This document shows positions 494 through 11,187 of a stretch of DNA of 28,365 nt, one piece after another (positions within the stretch are counted from its first letter, which is position 1; each line of letters opens with the position of its first letter). The notes under the pieces are model-generated. The model saw only the letters and a program-made list of their open reading frames with translations. It did not search any database and had not been told where the DNA came from. A program made the translations under genes and the position numbers. Source of the stretch: a virus; the IMG/VR virus record IMGVR_UViG_3300030012_000498, positions 1 through 28,365 of that record; one strand, given 5' to 3'.

Positions 494-883
494 TTGAGAG
501 TTGAATGGGACCCGGAGAACGAAACCTACGCAGAGTTTAAGAAAAGACGAAGTGCTAGTTTTGGTATATCGGGAATGGGGCAAAAGAAACGAGAAGGAAC
601 AGGTAAAAAGAATTTATCAGAGCTTCGGGAGAAAGCTCTCAAAAGGGCCAAGTACACATGTGAGTGGCCTAATTGCAATTCCAAGAAATGGCTAGAGATG
701 GCTCACCTTCGAGCGAAGGGTATGGGTGGACGCGACAGAGATATATCAGATGACCCAATGAATGTTTGCATACTTTGTAAACATCATCACGACATCTTTG
801 ATGGTAGACAACAAGTTGGCTCTCATAGAGAATACACTGAACTATTGAAAGGATTTCTTGTATTACAATGGAGAGTGCAATGA
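494..883 (+). CDS. HNH endonuclease, terminase-associated type
   Basis: A 129-residue HNH-family nuclease. Cys56 and Cys61 with Cys92 and Cys95 form the likely structural zinc site. His71 (in AHLRAKGMGG), Asn90 and the His97-99 cluster make the His-Asn-His metal core. The basic N-terminal 50 residues may bind DNA. The start is TTG at 494, chosen because AGGAG at 481-485 sits eight bases upstream and the first in-frame ATG lies 27 codons inside. Small HNH proteins encoded beside the large terminase are widespread in HK97-type phages, and in HK97 gp74 works with the terminase in DNA cutting and packaging. The location two genes before the terminase supports that role here. A free-standing homing nuclease is the alternative, but the conserved context makes it less likely. 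Confidence 0.88.
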   Translation: MRVEWDPENETYAEFKKRRSASFGISGMGQKKREGTGKKNLSELREKALKRAKYTCEWPNCNSKKWLEMAHLRAKGMGGRDRDISDDPMNVCILCKHHHDIFDGRQQVGSHREYTELLKGFLVLQWRVQ

Positions 884-1170
884 CAGAGTCATATACAGAA
901 TTAAAGGAAGAAAATCCTAAAGCAGAGATATGGGAAGGTTTTGAACAGGCCTATCTTGGTTATGGATACAATAGCGACAATAAGTGCGTAGCTGTTTATG
1001 ATTACTACACAATGCTTGACTTAGTTATTGAAGGCATTGAAGAGACTATGGAAGATGATGATATGTTAGTTGTTGATGTTATCGACGCCGCAATAGAACA
1101 TATACAGATTAATGTTATAGGTCGTGAAAGAGGTGGGTGCAAGCCCTTAGTAATTTATAAAGATTTTTAA
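880..1170 (+). CDS. small acidic hypothetical protein before terminase
   Basis: A 96-residue protein, rich in Asp and Glu, that I do not recognise. The start is placed at ATG 880, which overlaps the HNH stop as ATGA and has GGAG at 870-873 at good spacing. An in-frame ATG at 868 would add four residues but lies before that site. The stop overlaps the terminase start (TAATG at 1168-1172), so translation is probably coupled to both neighbours. The position is where a small terminase subunit often sits, but the sequence shows no helix-turn-helix and is too acidic for a typical DNA-recognition subunit. A terminase accessory role is possible but unsupported. Confidence 0.75.
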   Translation: MTESYTELKEENPKAEIWEGFEQAYLGYGYNSDNKCVAVYDYYTMLDLVIEGIEETMEDDDMLVVDVIDAAIEHIQINVIGRERGGCKPLVIYKDF

Positions 1171-2402: not shown

Positions 2403-5021
2403 ATGGCTGAAAACAAGTCAAGATTTGAACGAGCGGTAGATTGGTTAAATGCCCCAACTGACGCCCGTGTTAGAAGAGAAGCACAACAAAAAGGCATTGT
2501 TGTTAATCAACAAGAATATTCATACTTAAATCAAGCTGTATTCGGTTACAATACCGAATCGGGGTACTTTGACCATAAGAAACTAGCAGAGATAGGTGAC
2601 GGAACTGGTAACTCAGCTGTCGTAGCCTGTCTTAATGTTTTAGCAACAGCGTTTGCTGAACCGGGACTAATTATATCTACTAGAAACTCCGAAGGAGATT
2701 ATCAAAGAGATATGAATCATCCTTTAGCTAGATTGTTTAGAAGACCAAATCCTTATATGACACAGCAGTTACTTGCTAACTACATAGTGACATCACTTAA
2801 CGCAGCAGGTGACGCTTTTATATATAAGAATAGGAACGCTAGAGGACAGGTCGTGGAGCTTGTACCCTTAATGCCTCATTTAGTTACTGCTAAAGGTAAC
2901 GAAAACGAATTAATTACACACTTTAACTATCAACCTCAAGGTGGTATGCAAGGTGAAGAAACAGTCAAGATTGAAAAAGCAGACATGGTTCACCTTAGAC
3001 AAAATGTAGACCCTAACAATATGCGTAGGGGTATGGCTCCATTAAAAGCAGTTTTAAGAGAAATAGCAGGTGACGAGGCAGCAGGACAATATACTGCCGC
3101 TTTGTTACACAATATGGCTGTTCCCGGAGTAATTCTCTCACCGAGAGATGACGCTATGGGTGGTCCAACGAGAGAAGAAGCCGAAGGCATTGCTGATATG
3201 TATAAGCAAAAATTTGGTGGTAAGAACAGAGGTGCTCCTATGGTCTTGTCCGGTGCTATGAATGTTGAAATAGTATCTTTCTCTCCAGACCAAATGAAGT
3301 TAGCCGAATTAAGAAGAATACCGGAAGAGCGAGTTTCTGCCGTACTTGGCGTTCCAGCTGTTCTTGCAGGACTTGGTGCCGGTCTTGATTCAGCAACATA
3401 TAACAATACTAAAGAACTAAGAGAGTTCTTTACCGAGTCAAAAATGGTCCCTATGTGGAGCATGGTTGCGCAAGAAGTGACTCATCAATTGTTACGACCA
3501 GAGTTCGGCGGTAATGATAATCAATATTGTGAATTTGATGTTGACAATGTTAGAGCATTAGCCGTTGACAAAGACAATCTCTATAAACGCATGAATACTG
3601 CTGTACAAGGAGGTTGGGTAACAATTGGCGAAGCTAGAAAAGTAGTAGGTCTTGAAGCTGATAACAGACACGATGTTTATCTTAGACCTATGAATATGAT
3701 TCAAGTCACAGAAGATGGTAGTCCACTTCTGAATGACGGAGATACCGAACCTGCAACGGAAAACAATGATGATGAGTCTAAAGCAACATTGACAACTATT
3801 GGTTTACCGCCAGAGGTAGAGAGAGAAGACGAAATAATTCCAACTCCTACTTATTTAGATGATGGTAAAAAATATATTGCTGAAATGCCTAACGGAGCTT
3901 ATTGTGTTATCAGCCATGAAGACGGAAAAATAATTAAATGTTTTGAAACAAGAAAAGAAGCTGAAGAGTTTCTTAATAATAAGAAAGACGGAGTAATAGA
4001 AGAAATTAAAGTATCTTTAGAAGAAGCAGAAACAATGTACGAACGAGGTGACAAATTGCATAGTCCTGAAGAAAAACAAACAAATTTTCCAAGAAGTGGT
4101 GATGACCAAAAGATAAGTTTATCTAATTCACAACATCCACAGTTTCCTAGTTATGCCTATGTTAAAGATTTAAAAGAAAACTGGCCAGAGATTTGGAGAC
4201 GCGCTGGTACCGGAGGTAACCCACCTACTTCATTTACAGGCAATGACGCATTCAATAAATGGACTGCTTATAAAGGTGGTGACAGAAGTGAATCTGTTCT
4301 TAACTGGGTTAAGAGAAGAGAACGCTTTATGAATCGCCATAAGAAGAACAATAGACTAAACGGAATTATTGCTGTGATGAAATGGGGCGGTGTTACTGCC
4401 GGTGGTGTTTCACAAATGAAGTCAGTTGTTAACGATTATAAAAAAGTAATTAGAGAGAGAAGAAAAAAATCTCTTGATATGGCAGAAGATATTTTGATGA
4501 AGCAATTGTCTGCAAGAGTAAGAAAAGCTTTACAGAAAAAAGTAGAAGACCACAATGCTAAAAATCCTAAGCACAGAGCTACTCTAAGAATGTTATCAGC
4601 AGTATTTAGAAGAGGTGTTGGTGCTTATAGAACTTCACCGGGTTCAGTTAGAGGTAATGTTACATCTGCTGACCAGTGGGCGATGGCCAGAGTTAACGGG
4701 TTTTTAAGAGCATTAAGAACAGGTAAGTTTAGAAGAAAACCTTATGACCAAGACTTACTACCAAGTTCACATCCATTGTCTTCTAAGAAGTCTGGTAATA
4801 AAGCAGAATCAGTTAGAGTTGGTCAAGCGGTTAGTTGGTCTATAAATAAAGACCCAGACCCACCATCAGTTGTTCATGGTATAGTCACTTCTGTTAATGG
4901 TAAGGACAAAGAAGCGACAATGGAAGTATGGGCTCGCTTAGAAAATGGTGACCATAAGAAGACCGATAGGAAAGTAACAATGCCTATCTCAAAGCTAAGA
5001 ATTATATCAGACTTTAGATAA
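2403..5021 (+). CDS. portal protein with long C-terminal multidomain extension
   Basis: The first 435 residues are an HK97-type portal, the dodecameric ring at the capsid vertex through which DNA passes. The region around IPEERVSAVLGVP (306-318) and the following Gly-rich stretch is typical. At 872 residues it is about twice the usual length. The added part contains an acidic linker (about 440-480), a small beta-rich segment (485-525), a conserved-looking block (575-690) with aromatic and basic residues such as SVLNWVKRRERFMNRH, a helical basic block (695-790) ending in YDQDLLPSSHPLS, and a final beta-rich domain (802-868) that resembles small Tudor/SH3-like HVA1 domains. Residues 460-475 nearly match a peptide in the capsid protein. 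The roles of the extra domains are unknown. They could face the capsid interior or act before assembly. There is no sign of a frameshift fusion. Confidence 0.92.
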   Translation: MAENKSRFERAVDWLNAPTDARVRREAQQKGIVVNQQEYSYLNQAVFGYNTESGYFDHKKLAEIGDGTGNSAVVACLNVLATAFAEPGLIISTRNSEGDYQRDMNHPLARLFRRPNPYMTQQLLANYIVTSLNAAGDAFIYKNRNARGQVVELVPLMPHLVTAKGNENELITHFNYQPQGGMQGEETVKIEKADMVHLRQNVDPNNMRRGMAPLKAVLREIAGDEAAGQYTAALLHNMAVPGVILSPRDDAMGGPTREEAEGIADMYKQKFGGKNRGAPMVLSGAMNVEIVSFSPDQMKLAELRRIPEERVSAVLGVPAVLAGLGAGLDSATYNNTKELREFFTESKMVPMWSMVAQEVTHQLLRPEFGGNDNQYCEFDVDNVRALAVDKDNLYKRMNTAVQGGWVTIGEARKVVGLEADNRHDVYLRPMNMIQVTEDGSPLLNDGDTEPATENNDDESKATLTTIGLPPEVEREDEIIPTPTYLDDGKKYIAEMPNGAYCVISHEDGKIIKCFETRKEAEEFLNNKKDGVIEEIKVSLEEAETMYERGDKLHSPEEKQTNFPRSGDDQKISLSNSQHPQFPSYAYVKDLKENWPEIWRRAGTGGNPPTSFTGNDAFNKWTAYKGGDRSESVLNWVKRRERFMNRHKKNNRLNGIIAVMKWGGVTAGGVSQMKSVVNDYKKVIRERRKKSLDMAEDILMKQLSARVRKALQKKVEDHNAKNPKHRATLRMLSAVFRRGVGAYRTSPGSVRGNVTSADQWAMARVNGFLRALRTGKFRRKPYDQDLLPSSHPLSSKKSGNKAESVRVGQAVSWSINKDPDPPSVVHGIVTSVNGKDKEATMEVWARLENGDHKKTDRKVTMPISKLRIISDFR

Positions 5022-7755: not shown

Positions 7756-7778
7756 TATTTCCTATTTGGAATTTTGAA

Positions 7779-7810
7779 GAGAGCCGGGTAAAACCGGCTT
7801 TCTTCTTTTT
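7779..7810 (+). terminator. intrinsic terminator after the capsid gene
   Basis: AGCCGG (7782-7787) pairs with CCGGCT (7794-7799) around a six-base loop, followed directly by TTCTTCTTTTT. The GC-rich stem with a T-rich tail is a standard Rho-independent terminator. Because downstream neck and tail genes run in the same direction without an obvious new promoter, it probably stops only part of the transcripts and lowers their level relative to capsid. Confidence 0.85.
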
Positions 7811-7831: not shown

Positions 7832-8104
7832 ATGTCAGATATATTTAAACCAGAGAAGACAATTTGGAAGATGAAGGATGGCTCCTTCTTCGAAGGTTCA
7901 TTAGCAGAACTACCTAAATCTGGTGCTTCAAAAATTGCACAAGCAGGAAGAGAAGTATCTAAGAAATGGTTAAAAGAGCAAGGTTGGAAAGACGGTAAAA
8001 AAGCTCCAGCTAAGAAAGCTCCTGCTAAAAAAGCACCTGCTAAAAAAGCAGCACCTAAGAAAAAAGTCGAAACCAAAGCTGTCAAACCATCAGAAGATAA
8101 ATAA
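7832..8104 (+). CDS. small basic protein with histone-H1-like KKAPA tail
   Basis: A 90-residue protein. Residues 1-55 form a small folded part that looks mixed alpha/beta. From about 56 onward it becomes a disordered Lys/Ala/Pro tail made of repeated KKAPA units, like the tails of histone H1 and of bacterial histone-like proteins. Such tails bind nucleic acid without sequence preference. Lying directly after the major capsid gene, it may be a head-internal DNA-binding protein or a small head decoration protein with a charged tail. The ribosome-binding site is weak and the gene lies just past the terminator, so expression may be modest. The family is not recognised. Confidence 0.75.
   Translation: MSDIFKPEKTIWKMKDGSFFEGSLAELPKSGASKIAQAGREVSKKWLKEQGWKDGKKAPAKKAPAKKAPAKKAAPKKKVETKAVKPSEDK
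8000..8049 (+). repeat. 15-base tandem repeat coding KKAPA units
   Basis: Three consecutive 15-base units start at 8000, 8015 and 8030 (AAAGCTCCAGCTAAG and close variants), with a partial fourth from 8045. Unit differences are mostly in third codon positions, which points to selection on the peptide. The array lies inside the small basic protein gene and could change copy number by slippage or recombination. Confidence 0.85.
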
Positions 8105-8115
8105 GGAAGGCCTAA

Positions 8116-8760
8116 ATGGCTCTTTGTAGTTACACTGATGTGGAAACTTTCCTAGAAATAGATGTAGATTCTACATTACAAACGCATTTAACAAATACTT
8201 TTATCCCTTATGTTGACGCTGCAATTAAAAGATTTTTAGGATATGATGTTGAACAAGCAACATATACAGAAACTTTTGACGGCAATGAACAACAGGATTT
8301 ATTTTTAAGGCACATACCTGTTGCCTCTATTACTTCAGTGGTAGAAGATGGTAATACACTAACCTCTGGTAATACTAAAGACTATGTTCATTACGACAAC
8401 GGTAAATTAAGAAGAATAGTAATTCGTTGGTCTGGAATAAAACCTAAGAATGTAGTTGTTACTTATGTTGGCGGATATTCCTCATCTGATATACCAGACC
8501 AAATAAAATTAACATCTGCTCGTGCTGCCGCTAGATTGTTTATGACTTCTTTACAAACATCTGCAAAAGCTGATACAGGAACAGTAAGTTCTCATTTATC
8601 AGATAACACAGCTCAAACAGGATTTGATGTAGCACTTACAGAACGAATAGGAGATTACGATATATCATTTGCTGATGTAGTAATACAAAACTTACAACCT
8701 GTACTTACCACAGCAGACATGGCTATATTACAACCATTTAGGTCAAGATTTTTTGTATAA
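8116..8760 (+). CDS. head-tail connector (HK97 gp6-like adaptor)
   Basis: A 214-residue protein of the type that docks under the portal as the first neck ring. The N-terminal helical part begins CSYTDVETFLEI and contains the conserved-looking helix YVDAAIKRFLGY (33-44). A beta-rich middle follows (VASITSVVEDG and VVVTYVGGYSS), then a helical C-terminal half (about 135-155). This order matches HK97 gp6 and SPP1 gp15-type adaptors, and the position after the capsid genes agrees. It is longer than the usual 100-150 residues because of an extended C-terminal part. AAGGAAGG at 8103-8110 gives a strong ribosome-binding site. Confidence 0.82.
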   Translation: MALCSYTDVETFLEIDVDSTLQTHLTNTFIPYVDAAIKRFLGYDVEQATYTETFDGNEQQDLFLRHIPVASITSVVEDGNTLTSGNTKDYVHYDNGKLRRIVIRWSGIKPKNVVVTYVGGYSSSDIPDQIKLTSARAAARLFMTSLQTSAKADTGTVSSHLSDNTAQTGFDVALTERIGDYDISFADVVIQNLQPVLTTADMAILQPFRSRFFV

Positions 8761-8782: not shown

Positions 8783-9424
8783 ATGGTACATAGAAAAGCT
8801 CCTACTTTAGAAGAAGCAACAGAGTTATTTGCCAAAGAACCCGACAAAATGCTCAATGACTGGGCAGAAGAGTGGGGTGTCACACATGAACGAGTACGAC
8901 AATTAAGAATTGCTTCTGGTGTTCCTCAACGCGGTGCTTACAACGAAGATACTGCTAATACAATACTTGATATTATTAGAACAGGAAGAGGTGGATTATC
9001 TACACCTAGAACTTATGAAGAGGTCAACATTGGATATGAAAGATTCAAAAGCTGGATAGAAGAAGAAGAAGGCCTATCTGATAAAGTTCAACAAGCACAA
9101 AAAGAAGCAGAGAAATACTTAAAAGACCCAATTGAAAAACAATGCAAGTATTGTCGTCAATGGATAGAGGTACAAAATTTTAAGAGAAATCAAAAATACT
9201 TAGATGGTTATACAAAGTTTTGCGTTGCTTGTTTAGAAGTACTTAAAGCTAAGAAAGAAGAGCTTGGTGAAGAAAGAGTAAAAAATTGTTTATCTTGTAG
9301 AAAAGACTTGCCTACTTCAAAATTCACTAGAAATCCTAACTCAAAAGATGGTCTTAAATTATTTTGTAAAGATTGTCACAAAACAGAGAAAAGAAAGAAA
9401 AGGCGTAGAAATGCCCAGATATGA
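8783..9424 (+). CDS. helix-turn-helix protein with two zinc modules
   Basis: A 213-residue protein, probably DNA- or RNA-binding. Residues 23-50 look like a helix-turn-helix (MLNDWAEEWGVTHERVRQLR). Two zinc modules follow with identical spacing, C-x2-C-x22-C-x2-C: Cys121, 124, 147, 150 and Cys169, 172, 195, 198. Both share a pattern of CxxC, a hydrophobic-Phe position, an Asp-Gly turn and CxxC, so they probably arose by duplication. Single modules of this kind occur at the front of some phage HNH/endonuclease VII-like proteins, but no nuclease motif is seen here. The C-terminus is very basic (KRKKRRR). The AGGAGG site at 8769-8774 is strong. It lies between neck genes, where it is not expected, and may be a late regulator or accessory gene. 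Confidence 0.82.
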   Translation: MVHRKAPTLEEATELFAKEPDKMLNDWAEEWGVTHERVRQLRIASGVPQRGAYNEDTANTILDIIRTGRGGLSTPRTYEEVNIGYERFKSWIEEEEGLSDKVQQAQKEAEKYLKDPIEKQCKYCRQWIEVQNFKRNQKYLDGYTKFCVACLEVLKAKKEELGEERVKNCLSCRKDLPTSKFTRNPNSKDGLKLFCKDCHKTEKRKKRRRNAQI

Positions 9425-9656
9425 ACATCAATGTATCAAGCATAAATGTTATTTTGAGTTTGAAGTAACTTACTCAATACACGAAGACCCTTTAATTAAA
9501 TGTCCTAAGTGTGAATCTCATACTAAAAGACTTATTGGTAAGAATGTTATGTTTGAAACACCGATAGATGTAGAATGGGAAAAAGACCCTAGTGATTTAA
9601 GTGAGAAATCATTTAGGCAATTTGAAAAAGCAAAGAAGCAAAAATTTAGATGGTAA
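9411..9656 (+). CDS. small zinc-ribbon protein, FmdB-like
   Basis: An 81-residue protein beginning MPRYEHQC, as FmdB-type regulatory zinc-ribbon proteins do. The likely zinc ligands are Cys8, His11 (or Cys13), Cys31 and Cys34. The first knuckle is altered from the usual CxxC. The start is ATG 9411, inside the end of the previous gene in another frame. An in-frame ATG at 9348 would add 21 residues with no resemblance to the family. The tail (50-81) is highly charged. Its stop overlaps the start of the AIPR-like gene, so the three zinc/AIPR genes appear to be one translational unit. Zinc ribbons of this type occur in many phages without known function. Confidence 0.72.
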   Translation: MPRYEHQCIKHKCYFEFEVTYSIHEDPLIKCPKCESHTKRLIGKNVMFETPIDVEWEKDPSDLSEKSFRQFEKAKKQKFRW

Positions 9657-10828
9657 GAGACGAATTAGAACAAATACAAAATGGTAACGGAAGATACTTC
9701 TTTAGTTTTCATTCTTACAATATAAGCAAAGACCCTGTCAACACAAATGTATTTACTATAAATGCTTTAGTTCCTGTAAAACAATTCGCTATAGATAGAC
9801 CTAATCTAAAACAATTACTACCTACACATCCAGATGTTAAAGATAGACCTATATATCAAAGTGAAAAGCAAAACTTTTTACGAGCACTAAAAGACAATGA
9901 AGGAGAAATAAATATATTTCATCATAGAAGTCAAGGTATAACTTTATTTTGTGAAGAAGTAAAAATAGAAGAAGATAGAAAATTATTAGAAATCAATATT
10001 AAAGATTATTACAAAGAAGGAATTATTGATGGTTCTTACATATATGAATGCTTAAAAGATATTCCTACTGAAGATTTACCTAAGAAGTGTTATATAAAAT
10101 TAGAAATACTTGTAGGGTTACATCACAGACATGCCGAAGATATTATTAAATCTAGGAATGTAAAAATTAGAAAAGATAGAAAAACACACCTCACTAAATC
10201 AGAAGTTGAATGGATAAATGATTGTATTGATGATACACCTTACAAAGACAAAATAGACCACGCAACTGTCTTGTCTTTAATTAATTTGTTTAGAAATAAT
10301 AAATATGATTCTCAAATAGATGACCAACCTATCAAAAGTTATTCAGATAAAAATATGATTGTTGAAGATTATCAAAAGAACAAAGATGATTACAAAGCTT
10401 TTGCTGACATACTAAAAGATATACTTTATCTATACGACTATACAAATGTAACAGGTCAAGAGCTATGGTCAGAAAAGAAAGGTACTCTTGGTAGTTCCGG
10501 TATATCACTCCCCTACAAACAAAAAAATTACGAGTTTCCCATGATGAAGAAAAAGCTAGATTATAAGTTTCATGACGCAGTTGTGTATCCTTTGTTAAAT
10601 GGACTAAGAATGTATGTAATCTTTTTAGATGGTAAAGCTAAATGGTCTAAAGACTTTGACAAAATATTAAATATCTACAAAATCCTTTTACCCGAACTAA
10701 TTAAAATAACAAGAGACCACAATAAACAAATAGGATATAATGTTCATCTTCTTGGTAAAAGCAAATTACTTTACAGTATTATTTACAAAGAACTTCTCAT
10801 GGGAGACATGTTAAATCAATTTCAGTAA
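9650..10828 (+). CDS. AIPR-like protein (abortive-infection family), accessory
   Basis: A 392-residue protein with the core layout of AIPR-type proteins, a family named for abortive infection and phage resistance. The matches are INIFHHRSQGITLF (87-100), like the family's 'F..NNGI.I' strand; GIIDGSYIYECL (124-135), like its 'GIIDGGHTY' loop; and LEILVGLHHRHAEDIIKSRN (151-170), like its 'V.VLVG....EIA.ARN' segment. The loop His and the ARN motif are altered, so any enzymatic role is unsure. The C-terminal 200 residues are helical and not recognised. It starts in an overlap with the zinc-ribbon gene, sits between two neck genes and looks richer in A than its neighbours, all fitting an acquired accessory gene. 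Superinfection exclusion or competition with other phages is conceivable. The family call rests on motif memory only. Confidence 0.62.
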   Translation: MVRDELEQIQNGNGRYFFSFHSYNISKDPVNTNVFTINALVPVKQFAIDRPNLKQLLPTHPDVKDRPIYQSEKQNFLRALKDNEGEINIFHHRSQGITLFCEEVKIEEDRKLLEINIKDYYKEGIIDGSYIYECLKDIPTEDLPKKCYIKLEILVGLHHRHAEDIIKSRNVKIRKDRKTHLTKSEVEWINDCIDDTPYKDKIDHATVLSLINLFRNNKYDSQIDDQPIKSYSDKNMIVEDYQKNKDDYKAFADILKDILYLYDYTNVTGQELWSEKKGTLGSSGISLPYKQKNYEFPMMKKKLDYKFHDAVVYPLLNGLRMYVIFLDGKAKWSKDFDKILNIYKILLPELIKITRDHNKQIGYNVHLLGKSKLLYSIIYKELLMGDMLNQFQ

Positions 10829-10848: not shown

Positions 10849-11187
10849 ATGCCTTTACGAACAAGAAACTTACCGGATACTTGCACTATTCAAACTGTAT
10901 CAGAAACGGCTGTTGATGAGAGAGGTTTACCTAGTTCATCATGGGCTGATACTTACACAAGTGTAAAAGCAAAGTTTGAAAGTCAAGGAATAGAAGAAGA
11001 CAGAGATGGTAGAAATACTACTATTGAAACATTTGGTATCTATATAGAGCCGGGTGTTACCATTGTTCCGGGAGATAGACTGGTAAAGGGCGGAACTGAA
11101 TATCATGAAATTATAAGTGTTCAACAAGTTAAAGACAGATATGGGAAGGAGTGCTACAAGTATCTGCAAACTCTAGTTAGAACCTAA
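10849..11187 (+). CDS. head closure protein (head-tail joining)
   Basis: A 112-residue small beta-barrel protein of the head-closure (SPP1 gp16 / HK97 gp7-like) group. It forms the ring below the connector that stops DNA leaking and joins the tail. Family-like features are an N-terminal DTCTIQTVSETAVDERGLP (10-28), the central VKAKFESQGIEED (39-51), and the C-terminal VPGDRLVKGGTEYHEIISV (72-90). The length is normal. It resumes the neck gene order interrupted by the zinc/AIPR insert. The ribosome-binding site is poor. The stop overlaps the next start (TAATG at 11187). Confidence 0.83.
   Translation: MPLRTRNLPDTCTIQTVSETAVDERGLPSSSWADTYTSVKAKFESQGIEEDRDGRNTTIETFGIYIEPGVTIVPGDRLVKGGTEYHEIISVQQVKDRYGKECYKYLQTLVRT

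Follow-up and report, generated by a model that had tools for sequence, protein, structure and literature searches.

Bacterial defence loci commonly encode AIPR proteins, whose biochemistry is poorly understood. Their genes are often found in R–M operons (PMC2292703; PMC3506569) and also occur in the defence hotspots of phage satellites (PMC9122126), and AbiU1/AIPR has been described with an N-terminal HEPN toxin domain (PMC3506569). The N-terminal domain of DndB, a negative regulator, has likewise been assigned to AbiU1/AIPR (PMC3506569), and the DGQQR and DGQHR motifs sit in the NTP-binding site of the ParB/Srx fold (PMC4619093). Phage-borne genes with AIPR-type annotations are already known. 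As far as the present searches show, a clade-wide AIPR gene with a degraded signature in a late phage gene cluster, and an exchange of cassettes between two slots of that cluster, are new.

The stretch of DNA analysed here (the window; 28,365 bases) is an IMG/VR virus record covering the packaging–head–tail part of an HK97-type siphophage. Its genes run in the order HNH protein (494–883, +; PF13391 HNH_2, 5e-4), 100-aa ORF (868–1170, +), terminase large subunit (TerL; 1170–2402, +; PHROG 38, 4e-41), portal (2403–5021), protease, major capsid protein, small Lys/Ala-rich protein and head–tail connector/adaptor (8116–8760, +; PHROG 442, 9.7e-22). A helix–turn–helix (HTH)/zinc protein, referred to as HTHZn, an FmdB-type protein and an AIPR-family protein follow the connector, and then come the head closure or head–tail adaptor protein (10849–11187, +; PHROG 615, 4.9e-4; homologue in sister clade B, PHROG 501 Hc1, 1.7e-7) and the tail genes. 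A terminator-like hairpin, identified by consensus match only, lies 3′ of the major capsid gene (7776–7805, +). The small protein at 7832–8104 has a Lys/Ala/Pro-rich repeat tail (KKAPAKKAPAKK) and is kept between the major capsid protein and the connector in all clades.

No near DNA relative of the window was found among 50,697 phage records, and the phage collection yielded no homologues of HTHZn, FmdB or the connector. Longer relatives are present in IMG/VR, including the 47.7-kb genome G002 (35% GC), which encodes WhiB (PF02467, 1.6e-25). Since WhiB is described as actinobacterium-specific and WhiB-bearing phages have been reported for 'Ca. Actinomarinales' (~32.5% GC) (PMC7771536), the host is probably among the low-GC marine Actinobacteria. 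A ParB-like protein (602–1243, by eye) is encoded near the WhiB gene of a relative (L247:62–358, −), and SET-domain proteins are encoded upstream of the terminase cassette (L243:861–1169, PF00856, 2e-9; L248:7700–8008).

The initial annotation of the window described three coupled, apparently non-structural genes inserted between the connector and head closure. The three ORFs were confirmed at 8783–9424 (213 aa), 9348/9411–9656 (81 aa from 9411, the likely start, with conserved MPRYEHQ) and 9650–10828 (392 aa). The overlaps are 14 nt between HTHZn and FmdB and 7 nt (ATGGTAA) between FmdB and AIPR, and consensus matching revealed no terminator-like site on the same strand from the connector to head closure. 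Homologues in dozens of IMG/VR contigs and low pooled dN/dS values (0.11–0.12) show that the three ORFs are conserved coding genes, not chance ORFs. The PHROG matches given above agree with the identities assigned to both flanking genes, and the families of the three proteins are not structural ones of the head or neck. None of the three proteins matched any PADLOC-DB 2.0 family at E ≤ 1.

In HTHZn (8783–9424, +), two zinc modules follow a sigma-4-like HTH, and both CxxC...CxxC modules that had been read from the sequence were recovered in the alignments and in the predicted model. The HTH (residues ~20–46, MLNDWAEEWGVTHERVRQLRIASG; 8840–8920, +) resembles sigma factor region 4.2, and the HTHZn profile matched RpoH (8hkc_E) over residues 18–47 with an E value of 0.0098. 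The cysteines are invariant in module 1 (C121-x2-C124...C147-x2-C150; 9143–9232, +), which matched Hpy99I in Foldseek (prob 0.96, E 0.027), and in module 2 (C169-x2-C172...C195-x2-C198; 9287–9376, +), which matched endonuclease VII-type PHROGs (1e-6 to 2e-9). These PHROG matches cover only the zinc modules (stretches ~115–212), and HTHZn has neither a catalytic beta-beta-alpha HNH motif nor an H/N set that is invariant across clades. An endonuclease was thus ruled out, as the zinc modules alone align. Nor is HTHZn needed as the small terminase, given the Sf6-type TerS-like gene upstream of TerL in G002 (L248:6885–7382; PF20901, 2.6e-5, below the cut-off). HTHZn might plausibly bind DNA in late expression or packaging.

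The FmdB-type zinc ribbon (9411–9656, +; 81 aa) passed the curated cut-offs of both TIGR02605 (7e-10; 38.8 vs 31.3 bits) and PF09723 (1.1e-8; 35.4 vs 34.4 bits), as its first description would predict, and is unremarkable within its family.

The relatives used for the junction survey were picked by their connector and not by the cassette, with six added via HTHZn, giving 69 complete junctions (57 of clade A, 10 of sister clade B and two of outgroup C). The order connector–HTHZn–FmdB–AIPR–head closure was found at 42 of the 69; another 13 have an additional gene (PHROG 7084, 3e-61) separating HTHZn from FmdB and keep AIPR, and two have a 75-aa ORF before AIPR. All 10 clade-B junctions, whose connectors are 46–51% identical, read connector–HTHZn–HNH–110 aa–head closure, and in the two outgroup-C junctions HTHZn is followed directly by head closure, the neck slot being empty. 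HTHZn is present at 69/69 junctions, and AIPR at 57/57 in clade A and 0/12 in the two sister groups; therefore, HTHZn is a fixture of the junction, the contents of the slot behind it vary, and AIPR is a marker of clade A. HTHZn belongs to the core neck-region genes throughout this phage group, and only FmdB and AIPR fill the variable slot, so the cassette as a whole cannot be called inserted. Constancy as structural parts in all relatives, which had been raised as a counter-indication to an accessory system, was found in part: the genes are constant in clade A, but AIPR is absent from the sister groups. Haloarchaeal viruses and cyanophages encode homologues of the PHROG 7084 gene (L015:9278–10093 and 12 other junctions).

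In clades B and C, FmdB lies just upstream of TerL (L163:286–531, L168:121–366, L246, L243:1545–1784); it is 54–62% identical to the FmdB of the window, and the copies tested (L163 and L243) match PF09723. Clade A has HNH and a ~100-aa ORF there instead. The HMM of the clade-B ~110-aa ORF found ORFs directly upstream of TerL in L005, L015 and L040 (4e-5 to 9e-4), and after iteration it found the window ORF at 868–1170 with 5.5e-21. At the clade-B loci L162, L163, L229 and L246, HNH and the ~110-aa ORF occupy the neck slot and FmdB is upstream of TerL, whereas outgroup C has HNH as well as FmdB ahead of TerL (HNH–FmdB–TerL, L243:1156–1784). Clades A and B thus hold the HNH plus ~110-aa cassette and FmdB in opposite places. 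The window HNH is 63–65% identical to the outgroup-C gene, and because its identity to the clade-B neck HNH is only 39–44%, relocation and replacement of HNH are indistinguishable. Both FmdB and the HNH plus ~110-aa cassette are long-standing phage genes with two sites, one preceding TerL and the other separating HTHZn from head closure. AIPR is the sole lineage-specific gene, and every surveyed member of clade A carries it.

The AIPR-family protein (9650–10828, +; 392 aa), in which no added effector domain was seen, was assigned by homologue profiles, hhalign and Foldseek. The window protein alone had no AIPR match in Pfam, NCBIfam or PADLOC. Seven of its 26 homologues matched PF10592 at E ≤ 1 (best 4.5e-10), one of them (L010) with 40.1 bits against a cut-off of 25 bits; the cut-off is thus reached by the protein family, not by the single window sequence. 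Cellular relatives of ~400 aa found via the phage profile (L236, L237 and L239) matched PF10592 at 1e-19 to 1e-23, and hhalign aligned the phage and cellular profiles over 323 columns (prob 99.9, E 2e-33, 26% identity). The predicted model (pLDDT 78.5, pTM 0.57) matched AIPR (3e-5), GmrSD N-terminal (1e-3) and DndB-type (6e-3) proteins in BFVD, the targets being predicted viral models. Searches of the PDB by fold and sequence returned nothing useful; Foldseek gave nothing at E ≤ 0.001, with the ParB-like PadC at E 0.9. The AIPR-like call of the initial annotation therefore stands at the level of the family.

The AIPR core begins near residue 55, and the joint alignment has just five invariant residues, M1, G124, D127, G128 and R320. 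Every cellular and other viral member carries DGGH[TS], within the pattern G-[IVL]-[AV]-DGGH[TS], in contrast to DG[AS]x[LIF] in the phage clade of the window, where L061 is the one exception (DGGNL). The variants at the DG of this clade read G[AS][NHYA][LIF]Y, with GSYIY in the window (remnant GIIDGSYIY; 10019–10045, +); DG is retained, H-T is lost, and the full DG-G-H-[TS] signature is missing from the clade. The window protein is a divergent AIPR protein keeping the signature DG. By analogy with DGQQR/DGQHR, we infer that the changed motif may alter an NTP-binding-type site, and the loss of H-T could represent a change of specificity instead of activity. No N-terminal HEPN toxin domain was recognized, as no invariant R-x4-6-H was read by eye in the 26 homologues. 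There are no R–M genes beside the window AIPR, the neighbours being phage packaging and neck genes.

The AIPR gene is under purifying selection. Its pooled dN/dS (0.116, 57 close pairs) is similar to that of the connector and HTHZn and too low for decaying cargo. The frameshifted copies in L042 and L067 likely represent sequencing error, because other genes there are broken too. AIPR also had the highest median dS of seven genes (0.62; neighbours, 0.07–0.34), to which both recombination and weak synonymous constraint may contribute, and with a mean amino acid distance of 0.42, compared with 0.12–0.32, it is the fastest-evolving gene measured. Between L043 and L049, dS was 0 for MCP, HTHZn and p165, 0.08 for FmdB, 1.03 for AIPR and 0.91 for head closure; L043 and L044, conversely, have AIPR in common (dS 0.02) and differ in HTHZn (0.34). 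Neck-region alleles are thus replaced by recombination, and AIPR alleles are exchanged independently of HTHZn and FmdB. Apart from their AIPR and head-closure alleles, which differ at dS about 1 with independent breakpoints, the phages L043, L044, L049, L050 and L051 are near-identical. AIPR distances correlated with those of HTHZn (rho 0.89) and p165 (~3 kb away; 0.83) but not with those of FmdB (0.26), and FmdB distances tracked no gene (0.18–0.26). Since the value for the distant p165 nearly equals that for HTHZn, linkage alone can explain the latter.

These results bear on the earlier idea that the trio forms a three-part, toxin–antitoxin-like or defence system against competing phages, with AIPR as the effector and the zinc proteins as its regulator or antidote. 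The genes are coupled by overlaps and occur together at 57/57 clade-A junctions, AIPR homology is established at the family level, and AIPR genes have been found in the anti-phage hotspots of P4 satellites (PMC9122126). Against this, HTHZn is found without the other two alongside at 12 junctions, in clades B and C FmdB sits elsewhere in the absence of AIPR, and FmdB shows no co-variation with AIPR. Furthermore, AIPR alleles at dS about 1 are swapped while HTHZn is identical and FmdB near-identical, and such decoupling would hardly be tolerated freely by a dedicated antidote or regulator; FmdB and HTHZn are therefore not AIPR's dedicated regulator or antidote. With neither a PADLOC match nor, as read from the alignment, a conserved HEPN-type R-x4-6-H, we reject the three-part system as highly improbable.

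Considering these results, we propose tentatively, as a reading that is plausible but far from assured, that the locus combines a core HTHZn gene, old and mobile FmdB and HNH genes and one clade-A AIPR gene with a putative late accessory role. Judging from gene order, the clade-A AIPR would be read with the late genes. It may keep a ParB/Srx-like fold of the AIPR/GmrS/DndB type, as the predicted viral models suggest, and bind DNA or a nucleotide through it, while no longer performing the ancestral chemistry. The late accessory would then meet an AIPR-linked or restriction-type host defence, and the phage AIPR might act as an inactive mimic that attaches to the same partner or DNA end, not as an abortive-infection toxin. 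Late counter-defence or host takeover is our best guess for its role and ranks first, although it is somewhat doubtful in absolute terms. It is favoured because AIPR occurs in R–M operons, two cellular-type relatives adjoin DpnII-type R–M genes (L071; L238, read by eye), the motif is degraded and the alleles recombine. However, counter-defence genes are usually patchy within a genus, and the presence of AIPR at 57/57 junctions also fits a role in assembly or replication; clades B and C contributed only 12 junctions. A more specific form, in which the clade has domesticated a bacterial anti-phage protein as a fixed late gene and this AIPR with a disabled signature serves as a decoy against AIPR- or restriction-linked defence and its alleles are swapped following the hosts' versions, is unlikely.

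In favour of a role in assembly, AIPR is placed between packaging and neck genes, is retained at 57/57 junctions with low dN/dS, occupies a slot common to HNH and FmdB genes otherwise beside TerL, and has paralogues a few genes from TerL in the 224-kb phage contig L259, with a related arrangement in L262. Nevertheless, a domesticated morphogenesis factor acting in DNA packaging or head completion, which ranks second, seems on balance rather unlikely, as the sister clades assemble without AIPR, no structural PHROG gave a convincing match, and the gene both evolves fastest of those measured and exchanges its alleles independently of its neighbours. Recombining alleles, together with the family name and defence context (PMC3506569; PMC9122126), would suit a stand-alone effector of exclusion or abortive infection, blocking superinfection at a late stage and without zinc partners; the degraded signature, the lack of an added nuclease or HEPN domain and the fixed, not patchy, distribution make this third-ranked reading improbable. 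Fourth, and quite improbable, comes a DndB-like regulator whose DNA-binding AIPR domain adjusts late transcription or a host modification operon. The assignment of the DndB N-terminal domain to AbiU1/AIPR, the Foldseek matches to DNA-sulfur modification proteins and the sigma-4-like HTH of the neighbouring HTHZn point in that direction, but there are no dnd genes in the window and the motif differs from DGQHR.

The clade-A proteins with their changed motif form a natural mutant series that could reveal the function of the motif and whether defence proteins are reused by phages against their hosts. In addition, the exchange of cassettes between the terminase-proximal and neck positions separates the moving from the staying genes of the late cluster.

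Among other AIPR carriers, the only match of the phage collection to the window AIPR was MT838632 (L071, H1), a 5-kb record deposited as phage whose genes (MTase, Mrr_cat, DpnII, TIR and a frameshifted AIPR) suggest a defence island. The cellular AIPR subfamily was detected in about 0.6% of 695 genomes of two phyla, mostly those used to build the profile, which is too small a number for statistics on gene neighbourhoods. Two ~224-kb viral contigs unrelated to the window phage carry pairs of AIPR paralogues (L259:3115–7104, L262:5887–9905), the L259 pair lying near nrdD and an opposite-strand terminase large subunit gene.

Compared with known systems, the HNH plus ~110-aa cassette of the window (494–1170) is of the same sort as the HNH proteins beside phage terminase genes, whereas that of clade B differs from them in occupying the neck slot. 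The GmrS (DUF262)/DndB (DGQHR) branch of the ParB/sulfiredoxin superfamily, to which the BFVD matches lead, has DGQQR/DGQHR at a comparable site (PMC4619093), but the window AIPR has neither a GmrD HNH partner nor Dnd genes, and its motif is without Q/H and R. Bacillus phage Goe8 ('putative AIPR protein'), Podoviridae sp. ct8nN1 ('AIPR protein') and PHROG 1841 ('Abi alpha-like') likewise represent phage-encoded AIPR-type proteins. The Goe8 gene, however, stands singly next to sigma-factor and tRNA-repair genes, the L259 and L262 paralogues keep DGGH[TS], and none of the Goe8, ct8nN1, L259 and L262 genes was seen in the connector–head closure slot. The stand-alone cellular PF10592 subfamily (L236, L237 and L239) is homologous over ~323 columns, similar in length and alike in keeping DG and R320. 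The window AIPR differs from this subfamily in having DG[AS]x[LIF] in place of DGGHT, in lying in a late-type phage cluster and not in a chromosomal or R–M setting, and in being fixed in a viral clade.
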